NCBI GenBank assembly: GCA_963971535.1
Contig: OZ020593.1
Location: 12,701,500 to 12,765,499, forward strand
DNA from: Notolepis coatsorum
Taxonomy: Eukaryota > Chordata > Actinopteri > Aulopiformes > Paralepididae
DNA: 64,000 bases
Direction: 5' to 3'
A program made the position numbers and the translations under genes. A model generated the notes under the pieces. It was not told the origin of the DNA and made no database searches. It saw only the letters and a program-made list of their open reading frames with translations. This document shows, piece by piece, positions 3,104-62,100 of this stretch (its first letter is position 1; each line of letters starts with the position of its first letter).

Positions 3104-4020
3104 CACTTTGACTGTCGGGAAACGCTTTACAGCGGCATTCCCGGCCATGCTCAAGTTGCCGGAGGATTATATCAATATTTCAAAAATCTGCGATCGGATT
3201 CATATTTCCCCTCCGCTGGCCTGAGATCCACCAGGAGGACCCACTGAGCTCTCTGGCGGTTCAGGAGCGCCATCTGGTGGCCGATCGGCGCAATCGCCAA
3301 ACAGGAAGTGCTATGGAGGTAGTGCTGGTCGGCCATATTACTTCCGGGCACTCTGTTTGGCTCCCGGGACTCGATCTCGACACAATACATAGCGATCGAT
3401 TGCCAATAACTCGATAAACAACATGATTTGGACATATATACTATTATACAAGCTGGAAATGGACCCGATATTTCTACATACCATAATAGGTAAATGACTG
3501 TTCCACGCTCATCGCCCAACGGCGCGAGGAGGATACGGTAAGATTCAGCGTTATTTTTGATCGTATTCCATATAAACTGTTATGATGAACATATCACCCA
3601 CACTAGATGAATGATATAACGCTGCCCACGGAATTATAAACGATCCCCCGCCCATCCGGTCATCATCAGATCATACGTAGATCATTCTAGAAGTACGTCC
3701 AATTGAAATTTTTTATATCGCCCCGATTGCCATCAAACTGTATTTCATCATCAATATAATGCATTTGGGGCTATATATCACGTTCTGGAGAAAGCTGCAG
3801 AAAGAGATGAAAACATACTTATACATTAGACCATACTTTACTATGAATATGTGAATGAAAAAGTTTAACGTTGCTACACAATGAACAATACATATAGGAC
3901 TTTGAATGGGCCCTAATAATGCCAATGTAGCAATAGAATTTAAAAAGTTATAGCCCTGCAAAGAAGGGGAATTTCTCCATAGACATTTTCCGGATTTCTG
4001 GCCGGCACCCATAGTGTTAA
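3100..4020 (+). mobile_element. B-family piggyBac-like MITE (copy B2), abutting B1
   Basis: Starts in the same TTAA that ends B1 and ends at TTAA 4017-4020, with termini TTAACACTTTGACTGTCGGG and TTAACACTATGGGTGCCGGCC (inverted). Same orientation as B1 and very similar to it in the right half. The mini-exon near 3422 carries an in-frame stop in this copy but keeps the GTAAG donor. The outer flanks of the B1-B2 pair, TTCCGTC before and GACGGA after, are inverted copies of each other. Confidence 0.87.
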
Positions 4021-16400: not shown

Positions 16401-17208
16401 TTAACACTTTGCATGCCACGCCCGAGATTATTCGGGTTATTACCCCCCGGGTTGAATGCCCAATCACAAGAATATTCGTTTGTTCTCCTTTTTTTTTTTG
16501 ATCTGAAATCATATTTCATCAACCGTGTCTACCATTGGAAATTCAGCTACCTCAGGCGCTCAGATGTGGAAAAAAAGCGCCCCCTATCGTCTCCCAGATG
16601 GTAATTCACCCTTTTGGATTGAACTCAATGAAAATGAATGAGAAAAAAAAACCTGCACTCCACATTTTACTTCTCACTCGTGCAACTGGCGTCTACCAGC
16701 TTCATGCTGGACTCTCTGAGCAGCGGGGAATATGTGTTTTACAGTATACACAGTGGATCACTAAAAGGAGCGATTTTTTCGAATGGCGATCAGGAATTGG
16801 AATAATCCATTTGGATACCATCTGATCTCAGGTAAGGAATCTATGTTACCAGTCTAAGGATAATCAGACCCGTTTTCACGGATATATAAGCTTTTATGTG
16901 ATATCGCTGTTTGACTGCGCGCCGTCAGGAAATAGGAGACTCGATTTTCGGCTTGCCGCAAGAGCGTGCATGCGTACACATATACTATCGATAATCTAGC
17001 GTTTATTTGAAAACGATTCATAAATAGGCCGAAAAATTACAACGTTCTAGAATATTCCAGGAAAAGGCGATTATCAGGGAATCTCTTCTTTTTTCCGTGA
17101 AACAGAGTGCTTTTCAGAATGGTAGAAAACGGAAATGAACCGATAAAAAAACAATCTGCTACGACAATGTTGTCTGGAAAATTTGTCTTTGATAAGCGAC
17201 GGGCAGAT
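16401..17208 (+). mobile_element. A-family piggyBac-like MITE, 3'-truncated
   Basis: Starts with TTAACACTTTGCATGCCACG and matches the A family until GCGACGGGCAGATT, where it is cut by the T-run that ends a SINE. The mini-exon is intact here: ATG at 16783, frame MAIRNWNNPFGYHLIS, last base 16831, donor GTAAGG. The usual second terminus is missing. Confidence 0.8.
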
Positions 17209-17470
17209 TTTTTTTTTTTTTTTTTTATCTTTCTTCCCCTCCTTTTCCCCGATTTTTCTCCCATCCCACCCTTCCTGGTTGTTGCGTACTTTCCCCTACT
17301 GTTGGTCCGGGAGACCGGAGACTGTCACATGCTTTCCTCCGACGCATGTGCAGCCTGGGGCAGGCCAACCTGGCCGTGCAGGTTCTCACCGGGGAGAGTG
17401 TAGCGTGTGGGAGGCCACACTATCTCTCCTCAGTTCCAACCCTCGCTGAGCAGGGGGGGGTTTTACAGTA
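17209..17470 (-). mobile_element. SINE, same family as 59311-59802
   Basis: Read on the minus strand it has CCTCCCACACGCTACACTCT, then GGGATGGGAGAAAAATCGGG, and ends in a long A-run, matching the body and tail of the tRNA-derived SINE at 59311. The tRNA head is missing or diverged. Confidence 0.6.
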
Positions 17471-19275: not shown

Positions 19276-20227
19276 TTAACACTTTAACTGCCGAGGTTAA
19301 ATTCATGATATACCATCCCTTGCCAGCTCTATTTGTCTATGGAGAAGTTCCCCTTCTTTGCAGGGCTATAACTTTTTAAATTCTATTGCTAGATTGCCAT
19401 TATTAGGGCCCATTCAATGTCCTATATGTATTGTTCAGGGTGTATGAACGTTAAACTTTTTCATTCACATATTCATACTAAAATATGGTCTAAAGTATAA
19501 GTATGTTTTTATCTTTTTCTGCAGCTTTCTCCAGAACGTGATTTATAGCTCCAAATGCATTATATTGATGATGAAATACAGTTTGATAGCGATCTGTGCC
19601 AGATAAAAAATTTCAACTGGAGGTACTTCTAGAAGTTACTACATGTCATCTGATGTTGACCGGATGGGTGAGGCTTCGTTTATAATTCCGTGGGCAGCGT
19701 TATACCATTCATCTAATGTGGGTCATATGTTCATCAGATCAGTTAGTAAAGAAGACGTTAAGAGAATAACGCTGAATCTTACCGTGGCTTCCTCGCGCCG
19801 CTGGCAGATGGTCGTGGAACAGAATTTTTTCCATTATGGGATGTCGAAATACCCGATCTATTTCCAGGTTGTATAATAGTATATATGTCCAAATCATGTT
19901 GTTTTTTCGAGTTATTTCCACCGATCGATGTTCACTGTGTGAAGACAGAGTCTCTCTAGCATTAGCGAGTGGTCGGACCCCATATGGAGTGAGTCCTGCC
20001 GGGTTAAAGGTTGACATCCGGTTTCGATCTGCCGATCGGCCACCAGATGGCGCTCTTGAACCGCTAGAGGATTGAGAGGAGATCAGAACTGTGTGTCAAG
20101 GCTCCAGAACGGAAACGATCACAAGATTTTTGAAATATTGATATCAAAGACGAGTTACGGCGTCCTCGGCAACTTGAGCATGGCGGGGAATGACGAGTTC
20201 CGGCGTTTTCGGCAGTTAAAGTGTTAA
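19276..20227 (-). mobile_element. B-family piggyBac-like MITE (copy B3)
   Basis: TTAA at 19276 and 20224, ends TTAACACTTTAACTGCCGAGG and inverted TTAACACTTTAACTGCCGAAA. The mini-exon is on the minus strand near 19785-19890. The element lies directly upstream, in the same sense, of the decayed piggyBac transposase pieces at 17716-18340. Confidence 0.88.
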
Positions 20228-28974: not shown

Positions 28975-30850
28975 CACAGTTTTCAATAATAACATTAACG
29001 AGACTCGTTAACGTTAGCATTAAGCTAACAAGCTGGGGCCGCTGGTGTACAGCTGAGAGCTCCAGCATAGCTAACAGCTAGGCGCAAGCCAGAGTAGTTT
29101 TCATTCAATCAATAATAACATTAACACTTTGGTCGCCAGGCTTATATTCTTAATATACCATCCTCCGCCAGCTCTATTTGTCTATGGCGATGTTTACCTT
29201 CTTTGCAGGGCTATAACTTTTTAAATTGTATTGCTAAATTGACATTACTATGGCCCATTCAACATCAAGTATCTATTGTTCAGGGTGTAGCAACGTTATA
29301 CTTTTTCATTCACATATTCATACTAAAATACGGTCTAAAGTATAAGTATGTTTTTATCGTTTTCTGCAGCTTTCTCCTGAACGTGATTTATAGCCCCAAA
29401 TGCATTATATTGATGATCAAATACAGTTTGATAGGAATCTGCGCGAGATAAAAAAATTCAAATGGACGTGCTTCTAGAAGTTACTACTGATCATCTGATG
29501 TTGACCGGGGGGGGGGGGGTCGTTTATAATTCCGTGGCCAACGTTAGATGATTCATCTAGTGTGGGTGATATGATCATTAGAGCAGTTAGTATCGAACAC
29601 GTTAAAAAATAACGCTGAATCTAACCGTAGCTTCCTCATAGCGTTGGGCGATGAGCGTGGAACAGAAATATTCCTATTATGGGATGTAGAAATATGCGAT
29701 CCATTTCCAGGTTGTATAATAGTATATACGTCCAAATCATGTTGTTTATCGAGTTATTGGTAACGGATTGCTATCCGTTGTGTCTAGCTCGAGTCCTGGG
29801 ACTATTACCGAGTGATCGGACCGAATTGGAATGAGCACCAGCTTCCATTTCCCGTTTCCGCTCTGGGCGATCCGCTGATCGGCCACCAGATGGCGCTCTT
29901 GAACCGTTGGAGAGTTGCGAGGGGATCAACAGTAGATCTCAAGTCTCCGGGGGAGAAATATGATTTCGATTACAGATTTTTGAAATATTGATATCAAAGA
30001 CGTGGTACGGCGTCTTTGGCAGAATGAGCATGGCGGTGAATGACGTGGTACGGCGTTTTTGGCGACCATAGTGTTAATGAGACTCTTGTTGTGTCTATTC
30101 TGCTAACGCTACCTCTCATTGCTTTAACGTTACCTAGGCTCTCGTGTCTATCTGCTAACGTTAACGTTAGCATTAAGCTAACAAGCTGGGGCCGCTGGTG
30201 TACAGCTGAGAGCTCCAGCATAGCTAACAGCTAGGCGCAAGCCAGAGTAAAACACAGTTTTCATTCAATCAATAATAACATTAACGAGACTCTCGTTGTG
30301 TCTATTCTGCTAACGCTACCTCTCATTGCTTTAACGTTACCTCTCGTGTCTATCTGCTAACGTTAGCATTAAGCTAACAAGCTGTAACAGCACCAGTCTC
30401 GCGTCTATCTGCTAACATTAGCATTAGGTAATAACCGGTTTAAAATGACCTAACAACAACAAGCTTAACAAGTCAGCGATCTTTTTGAGACTAAACTCCG
30501 CTCGGTGGCAAATTGTGTTGATGTCGGTTTTGTTTCATCAATAAATGAGGCAGAATACACAGTGACTGTATCCTTTTTTGTTTATTGCACTTGTTCCTGC
30601 TGCAAATGAAATCCTAAGCGAGAGCTTAAAGATGGCGGCTTTCTGTTTTTCTGGAGACCCTCCAACGAGTGACGCGTCTCTCTTCTGACAAATCAGTGGT
30701 CTGCAGTGTTTCACGTGACTCATGAGGGGGTAAACGAGCGTAGAGCAGCTGGTATTCACGAAGGAGGCCGATGGCCAACGCTGGCCAATCAGAGAAACGC
30801 GGAAGTACATTTGCGTTGCCCAAAGTGTTCACGCATCCCACCCCCAAACC
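28975..30850. mobile_element. H-related repeat block with B4 nested inside
   Basis: Shares with element H the series AAACACAGTTTTCATTCAATC, CTAACGTTAGC palindromes, CTCGGTGGCAAATTGTGTTG and GTTTATTGCACTTGTTCCTG. The AGCTGGGGCCGCTGGTGTAC block occurs twice (about 29030 and 30185), on either side of the B4 insertion. The ends are not defined. Confidence 0.55.
29121..30077 (-). mobile_element. B-family piggyBac-like MITE (copy B4)
   Basis: TTAA at both ends, termini TTAACACTTTGGTCGCCAGG and inverted TTAACACTATGGTCGCCAAA. A G-run (about 29506-29518) has expanded in the family's C-rich box. The mini-exon is on the minus strand near 29630-29740. Confidence 0.88.
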
Positions 30851-32090: not shown

Positions 32091-34187
32091 AGGCCTAGGT
32101 TACACTGGGCGTTTTTGTTTTCGTTTTTGTTGCTGAATGAATAAGTTTGCTGTCCCTGTTACACAGAAATGCCGTTTTGGCAGGAAAACGCGTTGCCCTA
32201 GCGGGAACGCTGAAAAGGTGTTTTCGTTTTGGATACTCGCCAAAACTCGCCGACAACGTGTCGTGTAATCGGCGCGTAGCTGTTTTTGCTCAACGCCCAT
32301 GCGCAGTAGATACCGGCATCTGCGTGCCCTCACCAACGTCCGGTGACAACAGAGCTGTCCCAAATAGCTGCAGCTACCATGTGTTGTCAAGTTATTGTTA
32401 TAAGGACCCCAGTCCAAGCTACAACAGTCTGCATTCCCTTAACACTTTAATCGCCAAGAACGCCTAAACTAGTCATTCCCCGCCATGCTAATTCTCTAAC
32501 GTCATTGAGATCAATATTTCAAAAATCTGTGATCGCAATCATATTTCTCCCCCGGAGACTTGAGATCTACTGTTGATCCCCTCTCAACTCTCCAACGGTT
32601 CAAGAGCGCCATCTGGTGGCCGATCGGCGGATCGCCCAAACCGGAAACGGAAGCTGGTGCTCATTCCAATTCGGTCCGATCACTCGCTAATAGTCCCGGG
32701 ACTCGAGCTAGACACAATGGATAGCAATCCGTTACCAATAACTCGATAAACAACATGATTTGGACGTATATAGTATTATACAACCTGGAGATGGATCGCA
32801 TATTTCAACATCCCATAATAGGAATACTTTTGCTCCACGCTCATCGCCCCACGCTACGAGGAAGCTACGGTGAGTTTCAGCGTTTTTTTTTAACGTGTTC
32901 GATACAAACTGCTCTAATGATCATATCACCCACACTAGATGAATCATCTAACGTTGGCCACGGAATTATAAACGACCCCCCCCCCCCCCCCCCCCCATCC
33001 GGTCAACATCAGATGATAAGTAGTAACTTTTAGAAGCACGTCCATTTGAAATTTTTTATCCCGCGCCGATCGCTATCAAACTGTATACAATCATCAATAT
33101 AATACATTTAGGGCTATAAATCACGTTCTGCAGAAAGCTGCAGAAAACGATAAAAACATACTTATACTTTAGACCGTATTTTAGTATGAATATGTGAATG
33201 AAAAAGTATAACGTTGCTACACCCTGAACAATAGATACTTGATGTTGAATGGGCCATAGTAATGTCAATTTAGCAATACAATTTAAAAAGTTATAGCCCT
33301 GCAAAGAAGGGGAACTTCTCCATAGACAAATAGAGCTGGCGTGGGATGGTTTAGGATGGATATAAGCCTGGCGAAGAAAGTGTTAACAATTGTTTGTATT
33401 GAGCCGTATTGTATTGTACCCATTATGCAATATGTTAAATAAAGTTTACATCCATTCATTCTGCTAGCATTAACGATTGCATGAGCAGCTGGCTAACGTG
33501 AGCTAACGTTAGCTATCAGACCCTGTTAGCTTAAGCTCCTCTTTCAATCTTAACAAGCATTAAACAAAATGGCCCAGTCATCTATTCACTTTTGTTTAAT
33601 ACACGAGGCGTTGTCTCTAATGTTATCTAGCTACTGATAGCTCCCGATATCATCAGTTTGGTGTTGGCTGGCTAACGTGAGCTAACGTTAGCTGCTAGCC
33701 ACAATGCTATACTGTTATACTGGCATATTCCATTCACGTTAGCATGTAGCTAACAACGGCGATCTTTTTTTTAGACTAAACTATCCGCTCTTCTTGGTGG
33801 TCACTTGTGTTGATGTTAGTTTTGTTTCATCAACAAATGAGAGGCAGAACACACAGTGAATGTATCCGTTTTGTTTATTGCACTTTTATTACACTTTGCT
33901 GAAAAATAAGTGCTGCATTGGCTAAATAGGCATTTAAAGATGGCGGCTTGTTGACATTTCTTTGCAGGAAGTGTATTGGCACATTCAAGTTCTGATTGGT
34001 TGAAAATCGCCTTCATGTTCGCCACCTACTGCTTTGGCATTGTACTACATCACTGTGCTCAGGAGGCAAAACGAGTGCTCAGGTTGCAAAACGAATGTCT
34101 AACTCGGCTGCCACTAGGTTGCGACCTGGAAAGCTAAACTCATCTGAAAAACTAAATGAAAACACCCTAGGTGTAACTCCAGCCTTA
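32091..34187 (+). mobile_element. G element, left copy of an inverted pair (holds B5)
   Basis: Starts near GGCCTAGGTTACACTGGGCG and ends near the inverted form (GTGTAACTCCAGCC), with TTA on both sides, which would suit a PIF/Harbinger-type TSD. About 1.15 kb is its own sequence, the rest being B5. The interior includes a LINE-tail scrap (33387-33450), CTAACGTTAGC palindromes and the block shared with element H. The superfamily is tentative. Confidence 0.55.
32439..33386 (+). mobile_element. B-family piggyBac-like MITE (copy B5), best mini-exon
   Basis: TTAA at both ends. It is inserted in the TTAA of a LINE-tail motif (GCATTCCC-TTAA-CAATTG), and the empty site can be read in the inverted copy at about 36763. 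The mini-exon runs from ATG 32755 to 32869, 38 codons plus one base, open throughout (MIWTYIVLYNLEMDRIF, then HAHRPTLRGSY), followed by GTGAGT. A poly-C tract lies at about 32973-32996. Confidence 0.9.
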
Positions 34188-35044: not shown

Positions 35045-37084
35045 GGCTGCGGTTAGACAGGGGTATTTTCGTTTAGTTTTCAAGATCAGTTTAGCTTTCC
35101 AGAGCGCAACGTAGTGGCAGGCGAGTTAGACATTTGTTTTGCGACCTGAGCACTTTCGTTTTGTCAGAACGAGGCGTCGAATTCAGCACTGAGCATGCGC
35201 GGGGAGGTAGTTACCTTGGATGTGCCAATACACTTCCTGCAAAAAAATCAACAAGCCACCATCTTTAACACTTTCAGTGCCCAGCCACAGCAACGATTTA
35301 GTGCTTGAATGCCCACCATCCACTTCAATGTTAGCGTTAATATCGCCTAATCTATGTTTTAAATTATGGCTATGTGTCTAATCTGCCCGTCGCTTATCAA
35401 TGACTCATTTTCCAGTCAACATTGTCGAAGCGGATAGTTTTTTTATCGGTTCATTTCCGTTTTATAGCATTTTGAAAAGCCCTCGTTTAAGGAAAATAAA
35501 AAGATTCCGTGATAAACGCCCTGTACTGTAATATTCTAGAACGTTGTAATTTTTCGGCCTATTTATGAATAGTTTTCAAATAAACGCTAGATCTATATCT
35601 AGATATCTATATATCTATAGTATATGTGTACGTATGCACGCTGGTGCCGCGAGCTGAAAATCGATTCTCTTAGTTCCTGATCGCTCGCACAGCCAAACAG
35701 CCATATCACACATAGGGGAAAAGCTTATATCTCCGTGAAAACAGGTCTGATTATCCTAAGACTGGTAAAATAGATTCCTTACCTGAGATCAGATGGTATC
35801 CAAAAAGATTATTCCAATTCCTGATCGCCATTCCAAAAATCTATCCTTTATTGATCCAATGCTACGTACTGTAAACACATATTCCACGCTGTTCTGAGGC
35901 TCCACAATGACTGGGATCATCTCCGGTTACATGCGTGAGAAGTAAAATGTGGATTCCGGAGTTTTTTTTTATCATCCATTTTCATTGAGTCCATTCCAAA
36001 AGGGCGCATTACCATCTGGGAGACCAAAAGGGGCGCTTTTTTCACATCTGAGCTCCTGATGGGGCTGGTTTCCCAACGGTAGACTCGGTTGATGAAATAT
36101 GAATCCAGATCGCTAATTTAAAAAAAATCACGCTAATTGTCGTGCTGGGCATTCAGGGGGCGGACTGCTAACACGTGTTATGTCGTCCGTGGCATCCAAA
36201 GTGTTAAATGCCTCCGTGAGCCATTAGCCAATGTAGCATTTATTTTTCAGCAAAGAAAGTGCAATAAAAGTGCAATAAACAAAACGGATACATTCACTGT
36301 GTTCTGCCTCTCATTTGTTGATGAAACAAAACTAACATCAACACAATTGACCACCAAGAGCGGATAGTTTAGTCTCACAAAAAGATAGCAGATTTTGTTA
36401 GCTTACATGCTAACGCGATAGGGATATGCCATTATAACAGTATAGCATTGTTTCTAGCAGCTAACGTTAGCTCACGTTAGCCAGCCAGCACCAAACTGAT
36501 GATATCAGGAGCTATCAGTAGCTAGATAACATTAGACAACGCCTCATGTATTAAACAAAGGTGAATAGATGACTGGGCCATTTTGTTTAATGCTTGTTAA
36601 GATTGAAAGAGGAGCTCTGAGCTAACAGGGTCTGGTAGCTAACGTTAGCTCAAGTTAGCCAGCTGCTCATGCAATCGTTAATGCTAGCAGAATGAATGGA
36701 TGTAAACTTTATTTAACATATTGCAGAATGGGTACAATACAATACGGCTCAATACAAACAATTGTTAAGGGAATGCAGACTGTTGTAGCTTGGACTGGGG
36801 TCCTTATAACAATAACTTGACAACACATGGTAGCTGCAACTATTTGGGACAGCTCTGTCGTCACCGGACGTTGGTGAGGGCACGCAGATGTCGGTATCTA
36901 CTGCGCATGGGCGTTGAGCAACAACGGCTCCGCGCAGATTACATGACATGTTGTCGGCGAGTTTTGGCGAAACGGAAACACAATTTCAGCGTTGTCAGTA
37001 GGGCAACGCGTTTTCCTGCCAAAACGGCATTTCTATTTAACTGGGACAGCAAACAAAACAAAAACACCTAGTCTAACCATGGCC
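35045..37084 (-). mobile_element. G element, right copy of the inverted pair (holds an A element)
   Basis: Outer end at 37084 (inverted: GGCCATGGTTAGACTAGGTG), inner end at 35045 (GGCTGCGGTTAGACAGGGG). Nearly all of its own sequence is the reverse complement of the 32091-34187 copy, including the LINE-tail scrap at 36700-36780. No clean TSD is seen. Confidence 0.55.
35265..36207 (-). mobile_element. A-family piggyBac-like MITE in the right G copy
   Basis: TTAA at 35265-35268 and 36204-36207, with termini TTAACACTTTCAGTGCCCAGC and inverted TTAACACTTTGGATGCCACGG. The empty site is visible in the left G copy as GGCATTTAAAGATGG near 33931. The mini-exon (frame MAIRNWNNLFGYHLIS) is on the minus strand near 35785-35835. 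A (TATCTA)n patch lies at 35590-35625. Confidence 0.88.
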
Positions 37085-38240: not shown

Positions 38241-39199
38241 TTAACACTTTGGTTGCCTAAGGTTAAATTCATGATATACCATAGATTGCCAGCGCTATTT
38301 GTCTATGGAGAAAGTCCCCTTCTTTGCAGGGCTATAACTTTTTAAATTCTATTGCTACATTGCCATTATTAGGGCCCATTCAAAGTCCTATATGTATTGT
38401 TCATTGTGTAGCAACGTTAAACTTTTTCATTCACATATTCATAGTAAAGTATGGTCTAATGTATAAGTATGTTTTCATCTCTTTCTGCAGCTTTCTCCAG
38501 AACGTGATATATAGCCCCAAATGCATTATATTGATGATGAAATACAGTTTGATGGCAATCAGCGCGATATAAAAAATTCCAACTAGACGTACTTCTAGAA
38601 GTTACTACACGTCATCTGATGTTGACCGGATGGGCGAGGGGGCGTTTATAATTCCGTGGGCAGCGTTATACCAATCATCTAATGTGGGTCAAATGTTGAT
38701 AATAGCAGTTAGTATCGAAGACGGTAACGTTACATGCTGAAACTCACCCCAGTCTCCGCGCGCCGTTGGGCGATCATCGTCGAGTAGAAATCTTATCATT
38801 ATGGGATATATTTTTACCCGGTCCATCTCCAGCTTGTATAATGGTATATACGTCCAAATCATGTTGTTTATAGAGTTATTGCCAATCGATCACCGTGTAG
38901 CGTGACGAGCCAGAGTCCCATGAACTATAGCGAGCGCCCGGAAGTACTACGGTCGTCATGACAACCTCTATTCAACATCCTGTTTGGCGATTGCGCCGAT
39001 CGGCCACCAGATGGCGCTCCTGAACCGCCAGAGAGCTCAGTGGGTCCTGCTGGTGGATCTCAGGCCAGCGGCGGGGACATATGAATCCGATCGCAGATTT
39101 TTGAAATATTGATATAAGGGCGCTGTACAGCGTCCCCCGGCAACTTGAGCATGGCCAGCAATGACGTGAAAAGACGTTTCATGGCAGTCAAAGTGTTAA
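38241..39199 (-). mobile_element. B-family piggyBac-like MITE (copy B6)
   Basis: TTAA at both ends. Closest to B1 and B2: the right half (in its sense) is almost identical to theirs, including GCCCATTCAAAGTCCTATAT. The mini-exon is on the minus strand near 38740-38860. Confidence 0.88.
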
Positions 39200-39228: not shown

Positions 39229-40188
39229 TTAACACTTTGATCGCCGGGGTTAAATTCATAATTTACCATCCCTCGCCAGCCCTATTTAACATGGAGAAGT
39301 TCCCCTTCTTTGCAGGGCTATAACTTTTAAAATTGTATTGCTAAATTGACATTACTATGGCCCATTCAATGTCTTATATCTATTGTTCAGGGTGTAGCAA
39401 CGTTATACTTTTTCATTCACATATTCATACTAAAATACGGTCTAAAGTATAAGTATGTTTTTAACGTTTTCTGCAGCTTTCTCCAGAACTTGATTTATAG
39501 CCCTAAATGCATTATATTGATGATCAAATACAGTTTGGTAGGAATCTGTGCGAGATAAAAAATTTCAAATGGACGTACTTCTAGAAGTTACTACATATGA
39601 TCTGATGATGACCGGATGGGGGGGGGGGGGTCGTTTATAATTCCGTGGGCAACGTTATATCATTCATCTAGTGTGGGTGATATGATCATCAGAGCAGTTA
39701 GTATAGAAGACATTACAAAATAATGCTGAAACTCACTGTAGCTTCCTCTCGCCGTTGGGAGATGAGCGTGGAACAGAATTTTTTCTATTATGGGATGTCG
39801 AAATATCCGATCCATTTCCAGGTTGTATAATAGTATATACGTCCAAATCATGTTGTTTATCGAGTTATTGGTAACGGATCACTATCCGTCGTGATCAGCT
39901 CGAGTCCTGGGACTATTACAGAGTGATCGGACCAAATTGAAATGAGCACCAGCTTCCACTTCCTGTTACTTCCCTGGGCGATCCGCCTATCGGCCACCAG
40001 ATGGCGCTCTTGAACCGTTAGAGAGTTGATAGGGGCTCACCAGTACATCTCATGTCTCCGGGGGAGAAATATGATTTCGATCACAGATTTTTGAAATATT
40101 GATATCAAAGACGCTGTCCAGCGTCTTCGGCAGAATGAGCATGGCGGGGAAAGACGTGTTCCAGTGTCAACGGCGATTAAAGTTTTAA
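39229..40188 (-). mobile_element. B-family piggyBac-like MITE (copy B7)
   Basis: Ends TTAACACTTTGATCGCCGGGG and inverted TTAAAACTTTAATCGCCGTTG. It belongs to the B4/B5 subfamily, not B6's. The minus-strand mini-exon is open ([20 protein letters not shown], then HAHLPTARGSYS). G-run at about 39617-39630. Confidence 0.88.
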
Positions 40189-40250
40189 TAATAAACACTG
40201 TTAGGACTATCTGACTCTTACTAATAAACACTGTTAGGACTATCTGACTC

Positions 40251-40844: not shown

Positions 40845-43800
40845 TTAACACATTGGCGCCCGACCACGGAGTTGTCCGTGTTTCGAATCCAACACTAGAG
40901 GGCCATCATAACCTACTCAAGGTCACCGAGCGGCACTGCAGAAGTACCCTACTCTTTGAATTCTGAAAAGTGCATTACCGGCCAGATCCTCTTAGGGGCG
41001 CTGTCTCGATAATGCACTGTGCCCTGTGGCAGAACGGTGCACTATTTTTTATTTACTTTCAATGGGGTTTCCAGTTAGCTGGATCCTATGTGTAGCCTGT
41101 AGCTTGGAATACCTTTTGCGACGCCGAATTCACTATGCAGTAAAGGAATATATCATCAGCCAATGGACATATCAATCTACCAGATGGCGGTCGATAACTG
41201 GGAAATCATTTTGGGGATCCAACCGGCCCACGGTAAGATCTTTTTCACTTTCTTTTGCCAAAGTACAGACAAAGTCTCAAGCGAACGCCGGTGGTCTCGC
41301 GAGAGGTTAAGCGTTGGGCCGTGACGTCAGTGGAGTCACTCCAAGCAGTGCTGGGAAGCACAGAATGGAGTGTATTCCGTGATAACACAGCCAATATTAA
41401 CGAATACACCGAAACGGTGATTGACTATGTCTGTACTCAGGTAGAAGTAATAATCCCCACCACCAAAATTAATATCTACCCAAATCAAAAGCCCTGGGTA
41501 GACAAATCCGTCCGTGAGGCTCTGAAAGTGCGCACATCAGCATACAACACCGGGCTGGTGACAGGCAACATGGAAGAACACAAGATGGCAAGATACAACG
41601 TCAGGAGAGCAGTAATAGAGGCAAAACGGCGTTACAGGGATAAAGTTGAACTTCAGTTTGAACAGGCTGACTCTAGAGGCATGTGGCAGGGCCTCAGAAC
41701 AATGACAGACTACAAAGGAACCCCCCTCAAACTGAACAGTGACATCTCCTTAGCAAATGATCTCAACTCCTTCTATGCGAGGTTTGAGGCTGTGAATAAC
41801 AACACCAGCCTACAAACCACGGCAATGGGGGGGGGGGGTCTGCTGATGGAGACTCAGTGTTCAGGGTAACAGAGCATGAGGTGAGACGGATCTTTAAAAA
41901 AGTGGATATCAGGAAGGCAGCAGGACCGGACGGCATCCCCGGCCGCGTCCTAAAAGTCTGTGCCGACCAACTGGCCCCGGTATTCACTGACATCTTCAAC
42001 CTGTCCTTGGAACAGGCCGTCATCCCCACCTGTCTGAAGAAGTCCACCATCATCCCTGTACCCAAAAAATCTACGCCCGCTTGCCTCAACGACTACCGCC
42101 CTGTAGCCCTCACCTCCATAGCCATGAAGTGCTTTGAGAAGCTAGTGAAGGGCTACATCTGTTCCTCCCTCCCCATCAACCTGGACCCTCTGCAATTTGC
42201 ATATCGCCCCAACAGGTCCACGGAGGACGCCATAGCCCATGTGCTGCACACAGCAGCATCACATCTGGACAAGAGGCAGGGGAACTATGTGAGAATGCTG
42301 TTCATCGACTACAGCTCAGCATTCAATACCATAGTCCCCTCCAAACTCATAGCCAAGCTCAGGGACCTGGGCTTGAACTATGACCTGTGCCAGTGGGTCC
42401 TGGACTTCCTGACGGGCAGACCCCAGGTGGTAAGAGCCGGCAACTGCACCTCCTCATCCATCACGCTCAACATAGGGGCCCCCCAGGGCTGTGTTCTGAG
42501 CCCCCTCCTCTACTCCCTGTACACACATGACTGCGTAGCACAGCGGAACAACAACACCATCATCAAATTTGCTGATGACACAGTAGTGGTGGGCCTGATC
42601 TCTGCCAACGACGAAAGGGCCTACCTGGAAGAGGTAGAGAACCTGTCACAGTGGTGTCAGGAGAACTGCCTCTCCCTGAACGTCAGCAAAACAAAAGAGA
42701 TGATTGTGGACTTCAGGAGGTCGGGGGTCAAGGACTACAGCCCCCTCAGCATCGACGGGGCACCAGTTGAGAGAGTGAACAGTTTCAAGTACCTCGGAGC
42801 CCACATATCCGAGGACTTGACATGGACCACACACATTGACAGTGTTGTGAAGAAGGCACGACAACGCCTCTACTTCCTCAGGCGCCTAAGGAAGTTCCAA
42901 GTCAGTCAGAAGATCCTTAGGAACTTCTACTCATGTACAATAGAGAGCATCCTGACCGGCAACATCACCTCCTGGTTTGGGAATAGCACTGCACAAGACC
43001 GTAGCAGACTACAAAGAGTGACACGTTCAGCCGAACGCACAATTAGAGGGGGGCTTCCCACCCTCCAGAACATTTACAACAAGCGGTGCAAGGGGAAGGC
43101 TAAGAGAATTATTAAGGACTCGAGCCACCCGAACAACTGCCTCTTTGAACTGCTGCCGTCAGGCAAGCGATACCGGAGTCTTATGGCGAGCACAGAAAGA
43201 CTCAGAAGGAGCTTCTATCCCCAGGCCATCAGGCTGCTAAACGAACAATAATCGCTAAACGAACAATAATCACTATGCAACAACCATCAAATGCACACAG
43301 CACACACACCCACACGCACACACTCACTCAAACAAACAACACACTGCAGCACCCACTCTCCACACTTTAGATCACGCAAACACACTTACACTTTATATTT
43401 ATTGATAAAGGATTTGCACTACAACTCGTACACCTACTGTGAATTGTACCTAAACTGCACCTCGTCCATTTATGCCTTGCACTATATAGTATTGTATATT
43501 AGTACACTGCACAGTATTGTATATTGTATGGTAACTACGTCTACGAACATTGTACATATGTCTAAACTGAACACTGTGACCTCTTTTTTTACTTCTAATT
43601 TTTACTATGTTTTTATTCCATACTTATCTTGTCATGCACAGTCTCTGGAGCGCAACAGTAAGAAGCATTTTGTACAAAAGTATTCTGTACTTCTGTATGA
43701 CAACTATTAAAGAAACTTGAAACTTGAAAACTTGAATTACATGCTGATCAGGCCTTGTTATGATAGCCATCCACCCGATCAGCGAATGTGGCTACTGAGG

Positions 43801-45141: not shown

Positions 45142-46073
45142 TTAACACTTTGAATGCCAGCCACGACATAACACGTGTTAACAGCCCGCCCCCTGAATGC
45201 CCAGCACGACAATTCGTGTGATTTTTTTTTTTTTAGCGATCTGAATTCATATTTCATCAACCGAGTCTACCGTTGGGAAACCAGCCTCATCAGGAGCTCA
45301 GATGTGCTCAAAAGCGCCCCCTATCGTCTCCCAGATGGTAATGCACCATTTTGGAATGGACTCAATGAAAATGGATGAGAAAAAAAAACTCCGGAATCCA
45401 CATTTTACTTCTCACGCATGTAACCGGAGATGATCCCAGTCATTTTGGAGCCTCAGAACAGCATGTAATATGTCTTTACAGTATCTAGCGTTGGATTAAT
45501 AAAAGGATCGATTTTTGGAAGGGCGATCAGGAATTGGAATACTCTTTTTGGATACCATCTGATCTCAGGTAAGGAATCTATTTTACCAGTCTTAGGATAA
45601 TCAGACCTGTTTTCACAGAGATATAAGCTTTTCCCCTATGTTTGATATGGCTGTTTGGCTGTGCGAGCGATCAGGAAATATATCAGAGCTGATATCAGAT
45701 CGCCTATATAGCGTGCATACCTACACATATACTATCGATAATCTAGCGTTTATTTGAAAACTATTCATAAATAGGCCGAAAAATTTGAATGTTTTTTGTG
45801 TATTCTAGAATATTCCGTTATTTATGGAATATTTATATTTTCCTTGAAAACGAAGGCTTTTCAAGATGCTATAAAACGAAAATGAACTGATAAAAAAACA
45901 ATCCGCTTCGACAATGTTGACTGGAAAATGAGTCATTGATAAGCGACGGGCAGATTAGACACATAGCCATAATTTAAAACATAGATTAGGCGATATTAAC
46001 ACTAACATTGAAGTGGATGCTGGGCATTCAAGCACTAAATCGTGCGCCCCCTGCTGGGCACTGAAAGTGTTAA
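45142..46073 (+). mobile_element. A-family piggyBac-like MITE
   Basis: Complete, with TTAA at both ends: TTAACACTTTGAATGCCAGCC and inverted TTAACACTTTCAGTGCCCAGC. The start codon of the mini-exon is changed in this copy (AGGGCGATCAGG), but CTCAGGTAAGG is kept. Confidence 0.9.
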
Positions 46074-46093: not shown

Positions 46094-46959
46094 TTAACAC
46101 TTTCACTGCCCAAGCTTAATTCCTTTTTACCCCCTTGAATGCCCAGCACCACTTCAATGTTAGCGTTAATATCGCCTAATCTATGTTTTCAATTATGGCT
46201 ATGTGTCTAATCTGCCCGTTGCTTATCAAAGACTCATTTTCCAGTCAACATTGTCGTAGCTGCGTAGCAGATTGTTTTTTTATCGCTTCATTTCCGTTTT
46301 CTAGCATTTTGAAAAGCACTTGATTTCACGAAAAAAATAAGACATTCCATGATAATCGCCCTTTACTGGAATATTCTAGAACGTTGTAATTTTTCGGCCT
46401 ATTTATGAATCGTTTTCAAATAAACGCTAGATTATCGATAGTATAATGTGTGCGCATGCACGCTCGTGCCGCGAGCTGAAAATCGATTCTCCTAGTTACT
46501 GACCGCTCGCACAGCAAATCAGCCTTACCTGAGATCAGATGGTATCCAAATGGATTATTCCAATTCCTGATCGCCATTCGAAAAAATCGATCCTTTTATC
46601 GATTCACCGTGTATACTGTAAAAACACATAATCTCCGCTGCTCTGAGGCTCACTAGTGGAGCTGATCGACCCCGGCTGTGTGAGTGAGAAGTAAAATGTG
46701 GAGTCAGGTATTTTTTTTCTCATTCATTTTCATTGAGTTCAATCCAAAAGGGTGAATTACCATCTGGGAGACGATAGGGGGCGCTTTTTTCACATCTGAG
46801 CGCCTGGAGTGGCTGATTTTCCAACGGTAGACTGATGAAATATGATTTCAGATCGCTAATTAAAAAAAAAAACGAGAAAAAACTAATATTCTCGTGATGG
46901 GCCTTCAACCCACGGGGGGTAAACCCGAGAAAACTCGGGTTGGGCAATCAAAGTGTTAA
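46094..46959 (-). mobile_element. A-family piggyBac-like MITE
   Basis: Complete, opposite orientation to its neighbour. Ends TTAACACTTTCACTGCCCAAG and inverted TTAACACTTTGATTGCCCAAC. The mini-exon is intact on the minus strand (about 46575-46527; MAIRNWNNPFGYHLIS). Confidence 0.9.
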
Positions 46960-48130: not shown

Positions 48131-48182
48131 CTTGTGTAACCGTGCAGCGAGGGGAACGGCTCCCTCCTACACCCGCACAACC

Positions 48183-50213: not shown

Positions 50214-50860
50214 TTAACACATTGACCGCCGGGGGTTGTGCCCATCTCATACCCCTCTCTGCCACCGTTAAAAGCCTATGGAGATGTTTACCTTCTTTGA
50301 AGGGCTATAACTTTTTAAATTGTATTGCTATATTGACATTACTATGGCCCATTCAACATCGATTATCGTTCAGGATGTGGGAACGTTATACTTTTTCATT
50401 CATACATTGTTGTGTTAATACCGTCTTGAATATAAGTATGTTTTTAATCTTTTCTGCTGTAATTCCAAAAACGCTAGTTATAGGCCCAAACGCATATGAT
50501 AGATTATCGATGGCCGTTTCTTTCCCATACACGCTATATAAAAAAATTCAAATGTATATGATCGGTATAAATTATGCTTCATCATGCGTGGAGGAAAGGG
50601 GGGGGGGGGGGTCGTTTATAATTCCTTGATCATCAGTAACGGCTTTATTTACTATGGGTGGATATATTGATCAGATGATTACAAACAAGGAAACGTACAA
50701 TCAAGCTGAAAATAACGTTACTGTCCCCTTACCGTGGGCCGATGAGACTGGCTGTGAAAGATCCCAATTATTCGACGGCGATCGCCTAGGTCCATTTCCG
50801 GTTTGTATGGCACAATAAACGCCGAAATCATATCGATTATTAAGTTTAGAAAGCGATCCA
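50214..50860 (-). mobile_element. B-related element (copy B9), far end missing
   Basis: Starts TTAACACATTGACCGCCGGGG and follows the B layout with lower identity. Mini-exon on the minus strand, ATG at 50831 to 50733 (MISAFIVPYKPEMDLGDRRR, then IIGIFHSQSHRPT), followed by GTAAGG. G-run at about 50598-50611. It represents a separate B subfamily, to which the element entering at the window end also belongs. Confidence 0.75.
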
Positions 50861-50869
50861 TATGTAACA

Positions 50870-51240
50870 TGCTAACATATACCTTGTATTGTATAGTTTG
50901 TATAGATAGAATATACGTTGTGTATTATGTTTAGGTTATAGTTTTCGTTTATAGCTTATTTATACAGTTAGCATAGCGTAGTTTGCATAGATAGAATATA
51001 TGTTGTGTATTATGTTTAGTTCTATAGTTTTGTTTATAGTGTATTATTTATATCTTATTTAGTTTATAGTTATAGCATATAGTTATAGTTTGTATAGATA
51101 GAATATGTTTAGTTTATAGTTTATTTATAGCTTGTTTAGTTTATATTCATGGTTATAGTTTTTAGATATGTTTGTATAGAATATACGCTGTGTATTCTGT
51201 TTACAAATCGACTGCCGGGAAAAACAAGCATCTCACGTTT
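50870..51240. repeat. AT-rich tandem repeats, ~95-bp unit
   Basis: TAGTTTGTATAGATAGAATA recurs at about 50895, 50978 and 51086 with GTGTATTATGTTTAG and TTTATAGTTT between. Followed by TCTCACGTTTCTCCGAACAT and a LINE-like GACAATAAAATAATCAGAAT end. Confidence 0.75.
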
Positions 51241-56100: not shown

Positions 56101-59100
56101 GGTTTGGTGCGGGTTAGAACAATGTATATATATAAAGTGTGTTTAGGTGTTCTAAAGTGTGTAGACTGGGTGCTGCAGTGAGTTGTTTGTTTAAAGTGAG
56201 TGTGTGTGTGTGTGGATGTGTGTGCTGTGAGTGCATTTGATGGTTGTTGCATAGTGTTATTGTTCGTTGAGCAACTTCATCTTATCTTATCTTACCCGTA
56301 TCCTCCTGAAGTCCACAGGCTTCCTGATCAGCTCGTAGTACTCAGGGACCTCCTTCTTAGAGGGCAGCTGGACGAAGCCTTTACTGATCTGGCGACCCGA
56401 CCTGGAGGCATGAAGGGTAAACGGTGTATTTATATAACAGCTTTTATCCAAAGCGCTTTACAATTTTTGTTCCTCACATTTTACCAATTTTTTGTGGAGG
56501 ACATCTTGATCAGTGTTGCAGGATTTTTGGAGAAAGCATGGCACTTGAGACAAAACACACTATATCCTATATAATTGTATATGAATTCCTCTTGTTTCTT
56601 TGTTTACATACATTGCTTACAGCTTGTGTTATATTACGTTTTATTGTATTACCTTTTTTTGTGTGGCCACCTTGGTCTATATAACCTATTGTCAATGTCA
56701 TGATTTGTCAAGTAATTTGTCAAGTATACTATTATATACTTATTGTTTATGTGTCTTGGGCTGGGCTACACCTGTATGTAAGACAAGAAAAATAAAAAAC
56801 ATCAAATCAAATCACACATTCACACACTGACGGGGGAGGCGATCATGCCAGGTGCCGACCTGCTCACCGGGAGCAGTTAGGGGGTTAAGTGTCTTGCTCA
56901 AGGACACTTCGACACGCTGCCCGGGAGAAGCGGGAATCGAACCAGGAACCATCCGTTTACCTGACGATTGCTCTACCTCCACTCTATTCCCCTTTAAGGG
57001 GAGACACTGCAGGTGAATAGGGTAAAAGAATTAACTAATAGATATCACAATGAAACTTCCCCAGTTGATTACTTATATTAAGACAAGACTTTTTTGTATT
57101 ACAAGTTTTCTGAAATTGTATGTTTAAATATGCAAATGAGGCATTATCTACTTAAATATGCACTAATTTGCATATAATTCCAGGACAGAAATCTGAACAT
57201 TGGATAGAGCCATTTTCAAAATTATAGTTTAATTTTGTTGACATATTAGAGCCAAAGGTTATTACAGAGGGGATTTTGGATATCTCTTTTTATCACTCCA
57301 TAAATCAGAAAATACTCCATTCAGTCCATTTTTATGGTAAAATTCCATATTTCGCCATGTTTTTAGGAATAAAATGTGATATAAATCAGGGTATGAATGC
57401 GATATCAACAAACCCTTCTGTAAATACCTTCAGAACATAGATATGAATAGAACTGGAAGGTTTGGTGTATGTGAGTGCTACTGAAGTGGAGATTTCTGGC
57501 TCAGAGTATGAGGAAAAACTCTTAAAACTCATTTTTGGGAAAACGCCTTCAAAGTTCTGAATTGTAAAATGCCATACTTTTTTTTTTAAACAGATATTTA
57601 CAAACACAATACCTAATCAAACCATTAGTAATAGACAACCTAAACACATGCCTGATAACTGAATAATAATAATAATGATGTTATTGAACTGAATAGAACT
57701 ACACACAGGCTACAAACAGTGTAGTACAGTGTAGTACCCCCTAATAGGCAAAAAATATTTGAATAGATATCACTATGAAACTTTCCCAATTTGTTATGTA
57801 CATATAAACTAAGAAAACATATTGCAAGTTTTCTGAAATTTATGTTTATATGTGCAAATGAGGCACTTCCCCATTAAATATGTGCACATTTATGGATGCA
57901 ATAAGGCAAAATGATGTAAAATAAACAACTAAATGTGTGTTATTGACGTTTTATTGTCACTAGTTTCATAGAAGACATGTTTAGGAAGCAAAATATAACA
58001 AAATCTCAAAATCAACAAAAAAAGTATATTTGACTATTCACCTGCAGTGTCTCGCCTTAACACAATCGGGACGGGCCACGTATATATCCGTGTTTCTAAT
58101 CCATGCTTAAAGGACCGAAGGACGGATATATCTGTGGCAAGTTGTTTTGGCTTTTATTCCATTTTAACCCTTTATCTGCCAGGGATTATTCTGATCTTAA
58201 TCCCCTCTCTGCCACCACTATAAGTCTATGGAGATGTTCCCCTTCTTTGCAGGGCTATAACTTTTTAAATTGTATTGCTAAATTGACATTACTATGGCCC
58301 ATTCAACGCCAAGTATCTATCGTTTAGGATGTAGCAACGTTCTACTTTTTCATTCACATATTCATACAAAAATACGGTCTAAAGTATAAATATGTTTTTA
58401 TCGTTTTCTGCAGAACGTGATTTATAGCCCTAAATACATATATTAGATCATCAAATGTAGTTTGATACCGATTGATGTCATAATAAAACGTTCAATTGCA
58501 CAAGGTCCTAAACGTCATGCCTCATCATCTGCTGGTGACCGGACGGGGGGGGGGGGGGTTCTAAGTCCGTGGCCGACGTTAAATCATTTATGTAGTATGG
58601 GCGATATGTATATCAGAGCAGATTATACGTTTAATAATAATCAAACACGCTGAAACTCACCGCAGCTTCCTCTGACCGTTGGGTGATCAGCGTGGAGCAG
58701 AAATATCTCTATTATGGGATGTTGATATATGCAATCCATTTCCAGGTTGTATAATAGTATATACGTCCAAATCATGTTGTTTATCGAGTTATTGGCAACT
58801 GATCGCTGTCCAGTGTGTCGAGCTAGAGTCCCGCTAACGATAGCGAGTGCCCGGACCGAATATGGATGAGCACCACTTCCGGCGCGTCACTTCCTGTTTG
58901 GGCGATCCACCGATCGGCCACCAGATGGCGCTCTTGAACCGTTGGAGAGTTGAGAGGAGATCAACAGGAGATCCCAAGTCTCCGTGGGTAAAATATGATT
59001 GCCATCACAGATTTTTGAAATATTGATCTCAAAGACGCCTTACGGCGTCATTGGCAGATTACGCATGGCGGAGAATGACGTGGAAACTCGTCCTTGGCGA

Positions 59101-62100
59101 ATAAAGGGTTAATAACCTATTCAAGGTCGCCGAGCTGCACTGCAGATGTACCCTACTCTTTGAATTCGACAAAGTGCATTACCGGCCAGATCCTCTTAGG
59201 GGCGCTATCGCGATAATGCAGTGTTCCCTGTGGCCGAAGTTGTCTTTTTTTTTGTTTTTATCTCTAATGTAGTTTTCTACTCACCTGAAGCAATAGCTAT
59301 TGTCTGTTGCGTAGGCGGCTAGGTGGTGTAGTGGTCTAAGGCACTCGCCACCAGTGTGGAGACGCTAGGATTCGCGTGTTCGAATCCAGCTCTCCACATT
59401 GTTTTTCAGTTTGGCTGGTCGTCCGCAGTAATACACATTGGCCGTATTACGGGGAGGGAAAACTGAAGGGTGGGGATCGAACGTTGTGAACAAGCGACTC
59501 CTACAAGTCGGTTGGTGCGCCTGCGCAGTAGAATCAGGAAGTGTCGGGGGCAGCGTGAGCCTCCCACGCGTTACTCCTCGACACTGAGAGATCGAGCTGC
59601 GCAGGTGAAAAGATGCGACTGCTGTTACCTCAAGTACCGGAGGGGACTTGTGCTATGTATGACTTAGTCCACATTGCAGCCGGCTTGTGGGAGGCAAGAA
59701 ACAGCGTTCGTGACAGGGGAGGGTTGAAATTGGATGATACGAAATTGGGATGGGAGAAAATATAGAAAAAATGGGAGAAAAAAAGTGGATCAAAAAAAAA
59801 AAAGCTATTGTCTGTTGCACGGAATACGTTTTGGACCGCGGATTTCACTGCAATAAGGGGATTTATCATCAGCCAATGGACATATCGATCTACCAGATGG
59901 CGATCGATAACTGGGAAATGGTCTGGCGGATCCAACCGGCTCATGGTAAGATCTTTTTCACGTAAATTACAGCCCGATCGGGCCTTGTTATGATACTCAA
60001 CGAGGCGATCAGCCTATGTGGCTACTAAGACGAACACGTTATTGGTAATCAATAATAAGAAACGACGTCCCCCGCCCCCCCCCCCCCTTTCATGCATACA
60101 TGCTTGAGGATCGTACCGATCATATGCAGTTTGAGTTTAAACTGTAGCTTCTGTATAACGGAAATGCCATTGGATATAACGTTAGTAGGTATTAGCCCTT
60201 TATCTAGCCTTCCAGGAAATATCCTAGACCAAATGCCGTATGACGCTTATATTCACGGCGCTATAAAATGCGAACGTATTGATGTTTTCTTTTCTTTAAG
60301 CCATTTTGAAGGGACAGTTTATGGTCTCAATTGACAATGAAAATGGACAGATAGCAATACTATAAAGTATAGATTTAGCTCTACAAATGCTGGTCGTCTC
60401 TAGTGATATTAGACTCATCCCAGTGGCCGCCAATGTGTTAAGGATTTATCAAAACAAATCCGATTTATCTTTAAATGACAGTTAGATGATACAGGTGTAG
60501 TCCTTACATACTTGATCTGATCTCAAGCCCCACCCTCTTTGCTTGATCCTCCAATCACAACTGTCGCTTCCCTCGGACGAACAAACAACACGTCATGTTT
60601 GTGTATATACACATTCCATTCTAAAATGAGATGCTATGTGCAATTACATGTATATGCAAATTATGCATATACAAATACCATGTATACGCTTTTCATTATT
60701 TGTTCACTTTTTCCCCATTATTTTTGCTGTTTTTGTCCATACGAACATCTGTTGACCCTATCTGTTCTTCTTTTGTATGATTAAAAACAAAACTAATTGT
60801 TCACAAAAGAAATGTAAAAAAAATAAAAAGAATCGGGAAGCAACCGTTGTGATTGGAGGAACAATAAAAGAGGGCGGGGCTTGGGATATGGTCAACGTAT
60901 AACCGCGTCATGTATAACACGGTCCCCCTCACCAGGGGTGTAAAAAGTACCCAGAAATTATACTTAAGTGAAAGTATGGGTACCATCTCAAAATCGTACT
61001 CAAGTAAAAGTCAGAATCTGGCTAAAAACACACTTGAGTAAAAGTAAAAAAGTTTCTACTTTTAAATGTACTTAAGTACTAAAAAGTAAAAGTTGATAGG
61101 TATTTTCAGTTCATTACTGTCTAATATTTTACATCCAGCTCCTCTGGTCACCATGAGTACATAGGTCCCTGGAATGTGCCAGGAGGCCAAGCCAGGCAGG
61201 CACCTAGAAATACATTGACCTGTGTGACCTGTGTGACCTAACGCATGGCTGTATCCGGCCAGAGGCCACTGAGGAGGAGCAAAGATGGACGTAATATCAG
61301 ATTCAGCAACAGCTCACATATAACCCCACATATGACCATATACGACCAAGCCTGATCATCTATTTATTAACCAGTGGCTCGCTAAATTTGGAACCCACAT
61401 AGTATTTAAGCCATGATGTGTTTGTCATTCTGGAGCCTTGCAGCCCCCATGGAGGGCTGTGGTCTCCAGGACTGTTCCTCGTTCTCCGTGTGTTCCTGTC
61501 AATAAATACCATCGATTGACTTCACCTTCGTCTCCTGAATATCTGTCCAGCTGGCTCATCATATCAATCCAAAGAACTCAGTTTTATACTATCAAAGTAA
61601 AAGCTTTTTTTCCTGACTGTCTATTCTTCTGATAGCAGGTGTTTAATCAAAGATCCCCGCTTTCTAGTCTTGCACAAGGACCAATCAGCATGGGTATGGG
61701 CGGGTTCATTTTCCACTGATGGGGATTTGATTGGCTGTTTTTAAATAAATTGCGGCCGCAGGATTAATAACGTTAACGTTAGTTCGGCCAGAGAAACAAA
61801 TATACGAATTATAACTGTTGAACCTGCGAGATTTTTACTTTGTACTTTGTAGGTCTGCATTTTATGTAAGGAGGTCAAAAGTTCATTTTTTTTTCTCTGA
61901 AATGTAATTGAGTAAAAGTACAAGTATACAAACATAATAATACTCGAGTAAAGTACAAATCCCCAAAAACAGTACTTAAGTATTGTAACGAAGTACAATT
62001 ACTCAAGTATTTTACACATCCTGCCCCTCACCCGTCTTTATAGTTGAGCACCATGTCCACCAGCGTGTTGAGCTGCCTGGTGAGCTCGGGCGGGTTGGGA

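Follow-up and report, generated by a model that had tools for sequence, protein, structure and literature searches.

Colinear families of TTAA-bounded elements in Notolepis coatsorum share a donor-like block and probably form one non-autonomous piggyBac-type superfamily

The window, a 64-kb stretch of the 3.42-Gb Notolepis coatsorum assembly, holds PGAP1-like exons and a LINE-like reverse transcriptase and is densely filled with TTAA-bounded elements of ~930-960 bp and with fragments of them. Our census gives eight B elements, one B9, one B9-like copy cut by the window end, five A and one C, together with parts of two D elements and further fragments. An earlier note had described mini-exons in these families, short frames that begin with ATG and end at a GT splice donor. 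Elements and mini-exons are listed here, with a slash before GT in a donor motif marking the cut.

584..1471, minus strand: A element
2144..3103, plus strand: B1 element, mini-exon at 2482-2596
3100..4020, plus strand: B2 element, with one TTAA common to B1 and B2; frame with a stop
16401..17209, plus strand: A element; 17209 is where similarity stops, the 3' end not being located
16783-16831, plus strand: mini-exon of this A element, MAIRNWNNPFGYHLIS-G/GTAAGG
19276..20227, minus strand: B3 element
29121..30077, minus strand: B4 element; stop in frame, donor reading GTTAG
32439..33386, plus strand: B5, a complete non-autonomous element, TTAACACTTTAATCGCC...GGCGAAGAAAGTGTTAA
32755..32869, plus strand: mini-exon of B5, 115 nt, phase 1, donor GTGAGT
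35265..36207, minus strand: A element
38241..39199, minus strand: B6 element
39229..40189, minus strand: B7 element, donor ACA/GTGAGT
40845..41248, plus strand: D3, 5' part of a D element, ending where similarity to other D copies stops
41163-41232, plus strand: mini-exon of D3
45142..46073, plus strand: A element of 932 bp, AAG in place of ATG, donor kept
46094..46959, minus strand: A element
50214..50870, minus strand: B9-type copy, beginning shortly before the frame and reaching its 3' end
58164..59112, minus strand: B10 element, both ends CCCTTT
59812..60441, plus strand: D4, 3' part of a D element, including its mini-exon at 59876-59945
62719..63677, plus strand: C element of 959 bp, colinear with A
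63870..64000, plus strand: B9-like copy (the '63907 copy'), cut by the window end; start approximate

All seven mini-exons are where the earlier note placed them: each starts with ATG, stays open and runs into GTGAGT, GTAAGG or GTAAGA. What it had said about the absence of shared sequence and about conserved peptides fared less well, as set out below. Counted from the ATG, the donor is in phase 1 in B5, B1, D3, D4 and A (115, 115, 70, 70 and 49 nt), as the note had it for these families, and in phase 0 in B9 (50831-50733, 99 nt) and C (63062-63154, 93 nt). The phase-1 frame of B9 reads ..NNWDLSQPVSSAH-G/GTAAGG, and the homologue of the A frame in C reads ..DYWIIFFSLLQRP-G/GTAAGG, with a TGA directly before it. 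The GTGAGT donor of B5 is displaced 16 nt downstream from where, in the alignment, the other families have GGTAAG. Complete relatives of B9 measure ~956 bp (for example L073:1197-2152), and more D-like 5' sequence is present ahead of D4 at ~59103-59257, with an unrelated stretch in between.

TTAA stands at both ends, as a presumed target-site duplication, in A, B, B9 and C elements. For D, a 5' end is seen at 40845 and a 3' end (D4/E type) at 60441, never both in one full-length copy. Most termini read CACTTT or CACATT, with CCCTTT at both B10 ends and at a terminus at 40251. The CC[C/T]T terminal inverted repeats used as a piggyBac criterion in PMC2872659 are lacking at most ends; the autonomous piggyBac element L053, described below, likewise ends in CACTTT. 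The elements have no transposase of their own, none of the eight window ORFs of at least 150 aa falling in the listed ~950-bp elements. At the gathering threshold Rfam gave 0 matches within the window, and a known non-coding RNA was rejected on that ground.

All eight B copies of the window (B1-B7, B10) contain GAGCGCCATCTGGTGGCCGAT at an offset of ~170-190, for example near window 32608, which we take to resemble a CTCF site. The autonomous element L032 has CCACTAGGTGGCAG at offset 180, the D frames contain CTACCAGATGGCG, and long C runs (B, B9, D) or a G run (C) occupy a comparable interior place, for example window 32979-32996. Tandem arrays with 39-bp and 45-bp units lie at 48104-49428 and 52414-52773. 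The PGAP1-like exons are found at 21620-23967 on the minus strand, where one ORF has two copies of a 38-residue-containing stretch; the 119-bp direct repeat in it, at 23508 and 23796 and 98% identical, is a local duplication of exon sequence.

The families had been thought to share no long sequence beyond their ends, and this supposed absence had been the main reason to think of convergence. Profile searches overturn it: A, B, B9, C and D are homologues whose alignments are all colinear and on the same strand. B and B9 align along their full length (E 9e-130), B9 and D along 374-779 (E 3e-26), and A and C, homologous almost throughout, along 5-219 (E 2e-8) and 380-934 (E 6e-28). A and C also align with the D4/E 3' half, at E 3e-9 to ~1e-3 by pair, and the homology that B9 has to D and D4/E covers the middle and the 3' half. 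The 46 nt before the donor are gapless between families, at a mean identity of 48%, and the donor lies ~428-438 nt from the 5' end in B5, B9, A45 and C. The families share this position because they share an ancestor, by descent and not by convergence. Copies are numerous: a 32-mer from the B/B9 3' half (window near 33247-33278) has 12,948 exact matches in the genome and an A 32-mer 6,043, each with 0 matches in the backwards control. Over window 16721-16870, four genomic A copies including this one are 100% identical across 150 nt (40 scored), which suggests recent transposition.

Since the families are homologous, the ATG-to-donor frames in them are not independent. One such frame per family is unsurprising by itself; when seven representative elements were each put through 300 dinucleotide shuffles, such a frame turned up at least once with P 0.19-0.35 on the sense strand and P 0.40-0.55 on either strand. 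Chance alone, tested by these shuffles, was rejected as an explanation.

The claim that the frame stays open in most copies holds in part. Six of the eight window B copies are open to GT[AG]AG, but B2 has a stop, and B4 a stop together with GTTAG. Thirty further copies were picked by the 3' 32-mer and not by the exon (the 3'-block sample); six had no exon match and L103 was dropped, leaving 23, which with 10 window copies make 33. Of these, 18 are open to a donor, but some in another frame or phase: L115 and L122 are in another frame after a 1-nt insertion, L108 carries two offsetting indels and L112 meets the donor in phase 2. Of the B copies mined, 38 in all, 36 have the exact start, and 31 of these 36 are open to a phase-1 donor, many of these rows coming from loci fetched for exon identity.

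Several comparisons bear on whether the mini-exon peptides are conserved. The resemblance seen between A and C (MAIRNWN, AVDNWN) does not survive alignment, where the AVDNWN codons of C are not opposite the NWN codons of A; the C frame that is homologous has DYWII in the window copy, DNWII in L075. Agreement in protein despite differing DNA was claimed for B9 and the 63907 copy. They do differ in DNA (78.5% identity over 121 nt), but only 20 of 31 residues agree by hand count, with differences of 7, 6 and 7 by codon position, dN 0.21 and dS 0.44. Nor did the proposed dN/dS check point to selection on the protein: pN/pS of the eight window B copies is 0.81 in the mini-exon frame against 0.67 and 0.95 in the other two. 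Variable sites in these copies number 19, 12 and 18 by codon position, and a near-invariant stretch begins upstream of the ATG. On a tree of 31 B/B9 copies (three rows, L100, L103 and L120, left out), internal-branch changes in the same frame were 26, 44 and 33 by codon position; no third-position excess was found in the B/B9 copies of these small samples. One extra base shifts the frame in L100, L105, L106, L108, L115, L121 and L122, L108 also lacking one base, which restores it, and L101, L114 and L118 have a common TGA in the mini-exon frame just before the donor. The missing third-position excess, homologous DNA read in different frames, the 1-nt indel and the shared stop in B-like lineages, and the phase-0 donors of B9 and C together indicate that the mini-exon peptides are not conserved as protein.

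When the frame is instead taken in phase 1 at the ancestral donor, its last 13 codons align gapless between families. They read NWNNPFGYHLISG in A, NWEIILGIQPAHG in D, NWDLFAPLSSPNG in the B-like copies with one extra nucleotide (+1-nt), NWDLSPPVSSAHG in B9 and YWIIFFSLLQRPG in the C window copy. Over the last 12 codons this frame is open in 62 of 62 rows, from 60 places and five groups: A 15/15, B9 25/25 (two of 27 B9-type rows end before the donor columns), C 2/2 (C_L075 and C_win only), D 13/13 (11 places) and +1-nt 7/7 of the rows that reach the donor columns. Openness and donor counts of mined rows are biased upward, the loci having partly been fetched for exon match; the 3'-block sample is exempt. 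The D pairs L087/L096 and L088/L097 are each the same place, by which 13 D rows become 11 places, 30 A, C and D rows 28, and 62 rows 60; the repeated rows add no changes to the donor trees. The A rows L073 and L081 lie within a duplicated stretch, and most D rows belong to one near-identical subfamily.

Six frames were compared in 23 copies chosen for GGTAAG, one of 24 picks having been dropped for lack of it; because of this choice, zero donor changes among the 23 are not evidence. The phase-1 frame had the fewest stops (1/23) and the best BLOSUM score per codon (0.88; next 0.54). Tree changes in it were 50, 39 and 48 by codon position (23 copies), and pairwise between-family differences 1850, 1518 and 1458, which leaves no excess of synonymous change. 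Within the B group third positions do have an excess of internal changes, 44/103 (P 0.03, 97 nt) or 35/83 (P 0.06, 61 nt), but the share of 0.42 in the 61-nt exon window is reached by 23% of 157 windows of 61 columns. L115 and L122 run from ATG to donor in the phase-1 frame; both C rows and most B9 rows have the open frame with no ATG. Openness, stop count, BLOSUM score and the B-group third positions speak for a once-coding exon, a possibility that counts against the explanation we prefer.

As the alignments stand, the donor-like core appears to be the robust part of the finding. The hexamer GGTAAG is kept in 30 of 30 A, C and D rows (28 places), and by group G/GTAAG is found in A 15/15, D 13/13, C 2/2, B9 20/25 and +1-nt 4/7 rows. 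In A the hexamer has 0 changes against 8.4 expected (15 rows; 4 of 258 hexamers are as low), in D 0 against 6.9 (13 rows, 11 places; 5 of 276) and in A+C 0 against 11.8 (17 rows; 3 of 256). The +1-nt and B9 rows together show 7 changes against 10.6 expected (32 rows), and there the hexamer is not specially conserved. Conservation above the surroundings is seen in A, D and A+C and not in the +1-nt plus B9 set, and the site is lost in most B copies, which have no ACG/GTAAG and carry GTGAGT, GTAAGT or GTAAGA 16 nt downstream. In the B-like copy L108 the old donor and the new one occur together.

Inserted copies behave differently from this family-level pattern. Of 6,289 A copies whose flanks are intact, 246 (3.9%) have a differing hexamer, and the first 100 A copies listed include 5 donor variants, each different in its own way. 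The neighbouring hexamer differs in 820 of 6,863, and its 12 variants in the first 100 listed comprise 10 of one subfamily form and 2 single-copy forms. Single changes in the neighbour (2/100 listed) are no commoner than in the donor (5/100 listed), so the inserted copies give no sign of donor constraint. What would set the donor apart, in the listed rows, is that no common subfamily variant of it occurs, as would follow from constraint on source copies and not on inserted ones.

Plain descent together with chance might produce much of this. An ancestral ATG frame and GGTAAG would have been kept without function through the slow divergence of a few source lineages, a reading compatible with the homology part of the preferred explanation. 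It draws on the homology of the families, on the 19-35% of shuffled elements that contain such a frame per strand, and on the lack of donor constraint in inserted copies and in the +1-nt and B9 copies. It has to meet the A+C result, in which 3 of 256 hexamers are as unchanged, with a Poisson P of ~1e-5; this value treats sites as independent and is weakened by conserved neighbours and by a site chosen beforehand by look. We judge this reading somewhat unlikely.

The earlier note had also suggested that insertions act as a mobile promoter, start codon and donor for host genes. The hexamer is intact in 6,043 A copies with intact flanks, and B4, B6 and B7, themselves on the minus strand, have higher coordinates than the PGAP1-like exons of that strand, both of which would suit such a role; the two C rows and most B9 rows, however, have no ATG in the phase-1 frame, and from these sequences the role seems very improbable.

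The search for autonomous relatives was directed at piggyBac transposase loci (PF13843): of 2,366 first-look candidates, 116 were scored, 30 fetched and nine extended, and the 5' end was located in five. L053 and L055 have their first 85-86 bp in common with B, L039 and L032 94-103 bp with A, and L042 48 bp with B. Overall, the 5' 82-103 bp of B, B9 and A were matched in PF13843 loci, the match of C being weak (10 bits) and that of D not significant. The B profile scores 57.8 bits with L053 and 56.1 with L055 against 12.3 with L042, 7.4 with L032 and 4.2 with L039; the A profile scores 33.3 with L039 and 17.6 with L032 against 5.1 with L055 and 3.9 with L053; the C profile scores no more than 10.4 with L032 and 6.9 with L039. 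The ends of the elements are thereby matched to at least two divergent piggyBac transposase clades. Against L053, the 5' 86 bp of B4 are 96.5% identical, and the B2 3' end agrees with it at 29 of 41 nt, ungapped. Beyond the terminal 48-103 bp, no match between the five autonomous elements and the MITE families was found at E 0.01, the 3' end being reached only for L053.

In L053 (G000:C4:182933637-182939645) 6.0 kb separate the TTAACAC ends, and the transposase exon, open over 555 aa, contains PF13843 together with a zf-Tnp_2 match below cut-off; exon 1 of this copy runs into a GT repeat. Exon 1 begins MKRRSVGK or MRKRSVGK in L055, L053 and L042 and MKRIRKTK in L039, and in L032 the tail of L039 exon 1 is matched by a stretch that contains a stop. 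An autonomous relative using the mini-exon as exon 1, which the earlier note anticipated, was thus seen at none of the five located 5' ends, themselves few of the 116 scored hits. Transposase exon 1 was rejected as the source for the classes with locatable 5' ends, where the block is absent. The exon 1 ends of L055 and L039 and an inner exon of L032/L039 are in phase 1 as read.

In the first fetch, a frame of the window-MITE type lies upstream of a transposase exon on the same strand in two of 30 loci, L030 and L037. The A-type frame of L030 belongs to an A copy that has a 3' end of its own, and lies between two of the transposase exons; since the relative L029 is without it there, it looks nested. 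The main transposase exon of L037 is preceded by a D copy that has a 5' end of its own, and the D-type frame would be in phase with that exon as the acceptor was read. Exons 1-3 known from L032/L039 were not found in L037, nor was a TTAAC.C end in the 2.1 kb fetched downstream, and the D-type frame upstream of its transposase is ambiguous. At ~3597 of L037 (minus strand), the D copy ceases to resemble other D/E elements at an internal TTAA with AGGGGACATG after it; a different TTAA element, presumably Kolobok-like, may have inserted at this point.

The block might be the end of a true phase-1 first exon (NW..........G/GTAAG) of an autonomous relative outside the examined set, with A, D and some +1-nt B-like copies keeping ATG and frame and B9, B and C having lost parts. 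The phase-1 frame open in all 62 rows and gapless to the donor in the 23 copies compared, the unchanged donor in A, C and D, the phase-1 reading of the L055, L039 and L032/L039 exons and the in-phase D-type frame of L037 all fit it. Set against these are the block's absence from the five located autonomous 5' ends, the lack of a between-family third-position excess, and L037 itself, whose relatives L032 and L039 use other exons and which shows no downstream TTAAC.C end. We consider such an exon unlikely. The first exon retained from a parental transposon, as the earlier note had it, finds support in the donor of A, C and D and in the open frame of the five groups, but the autonomous elements and the pN/pS of 0.81 speak against it.

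The explanation we prefer, with a probability of about 0.6, is one old non-autonomous superfamily of piggyBac type, mobilised in trans, in whose conserved interior cassette a donor-like block was constrained at the nucleotide level in source copies. Behind it stand the homology, the common ends, the conserved hexamer of A, C and D and the want of a clear codon signature. Counting against it are the hexamer of the +1-nt and B9 copies, which is not specially kept, the loss of the site in most B copies and the inserted A copies, in which the donor shows no constraint. The elements would be families of one ancient TTAA-bounded superfamily, each copy having ends that were taken over from a resident clade of piggyBac transposases or evolved along with it, those of B and B9 going with the L053/L055 clade and those of A and, more weakly, C with the L039/L032 clade. 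The interior cassette, of ~850 bp and apparently missing from the five autonomous elements examined, would hold several better-conserved blocks, the mini-exon being one of them. This block would comprise an AATTGG/AACTGG box, 37 nt from the start of the box's first codon to the cut, and the strong 5' splice-site-like GGTAAG. Source copies would keep it at the nucleotide level, inserted copies would then decay neutrally, and ATG and peptide would be mostly by-products. Mobilisation would proceed in trans, by piggyBac transposases acting on the common ends. GGTAAG may be a 5' splice site (U1 site) in source-copy transcripts, or a relic of one, and the relic branch overlaps with the first-exon reading above; a first exon in use and an ancestral exon end are both possible for the block, judging from sequence. 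A more speculative variant, which we hold to be quite improbable, is that an ancient lineage keeps the end of a phase-1 start exon in which only phase, openness and donor are selected, the peptide being free and the donor movable, and that source copies splice onto phase-1 transposase or host exons.

On the preferred explanation, four seemingly unrelated MITEs with convergent exons become a single old superfamily of many thousands of copies, whose large interior is conserved. Two questions become testable: why non-autonomous elements keep an interior that is missing from the examined transposase-bearing elements, a question raised for coral CMITEs in the passages concerned, and whether a conserved donor-like site in a very abundant element affects host-gene or transposase transcripts. 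Our literature search found no paper joining piggyBac TTAA MITEs with a splice donor, and none on non-autonomous piggyBac elements in fish genomes with a first exon and intron.

Among known systems, the T2-MITEs of Xenopus are described, in the parts of PMC6004289 that treat them, as Kolobok elements with AGGRR termini, TTAA sites and many subfamilies, long-lived and recently active. The present elements appear similar in their TTAA sites, many subfamilies, long life and recent activity; unlike T2-MITEs, they share ends with an autonomous element, L053, that encodes a PF13843 transposase. A Kolobok T2-MITE was rejected, the ends here reading TTAACAC or TTAACCC in place of TTAA and AGGRR. In the relevant text of PMC2268245, MER85 of primates is a 140-nt repeat made of the left and right ends of an autonomous piggyBac copy, and PGBD3 works as an alternative 3' terminal exon. 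These too are non-autonomous piggyBac derivatives from autonomous ends, with a piggyBac copy engaged in splicing, but PGBD3 as described there is a 3' terminal exon and not a first exon with a donor, as proposed for the mini-exon.

The closest precedent appears to be the CMITEs of corals, which the present elements seem to resemble on a larger scale. According to the passages of PMC2872659 that deal with them, CMITEs of Acropora are TTAA MITEs tied to piggyBac, ~100 bp long with a 75-bp core and CC[C/T]T termini, with ~1,600 copies estimated in A. millepora; their families differ in the ends but share an interior whose origin is not known, and similarity to the related autonomous transposon is confined to the ends and their vicinity. 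Unlike these, the elements described here are ~950 bp long, have termini that mostly read CACTTT or CACATT, occur in far more copies and hold in their core a conserved donor-like site, a feature that goes unmentioned in those passages. What the two have in common is the TTAA target, the ties to piggyBac, an interior common to families with different ends, and an autonomous match at the ends only.
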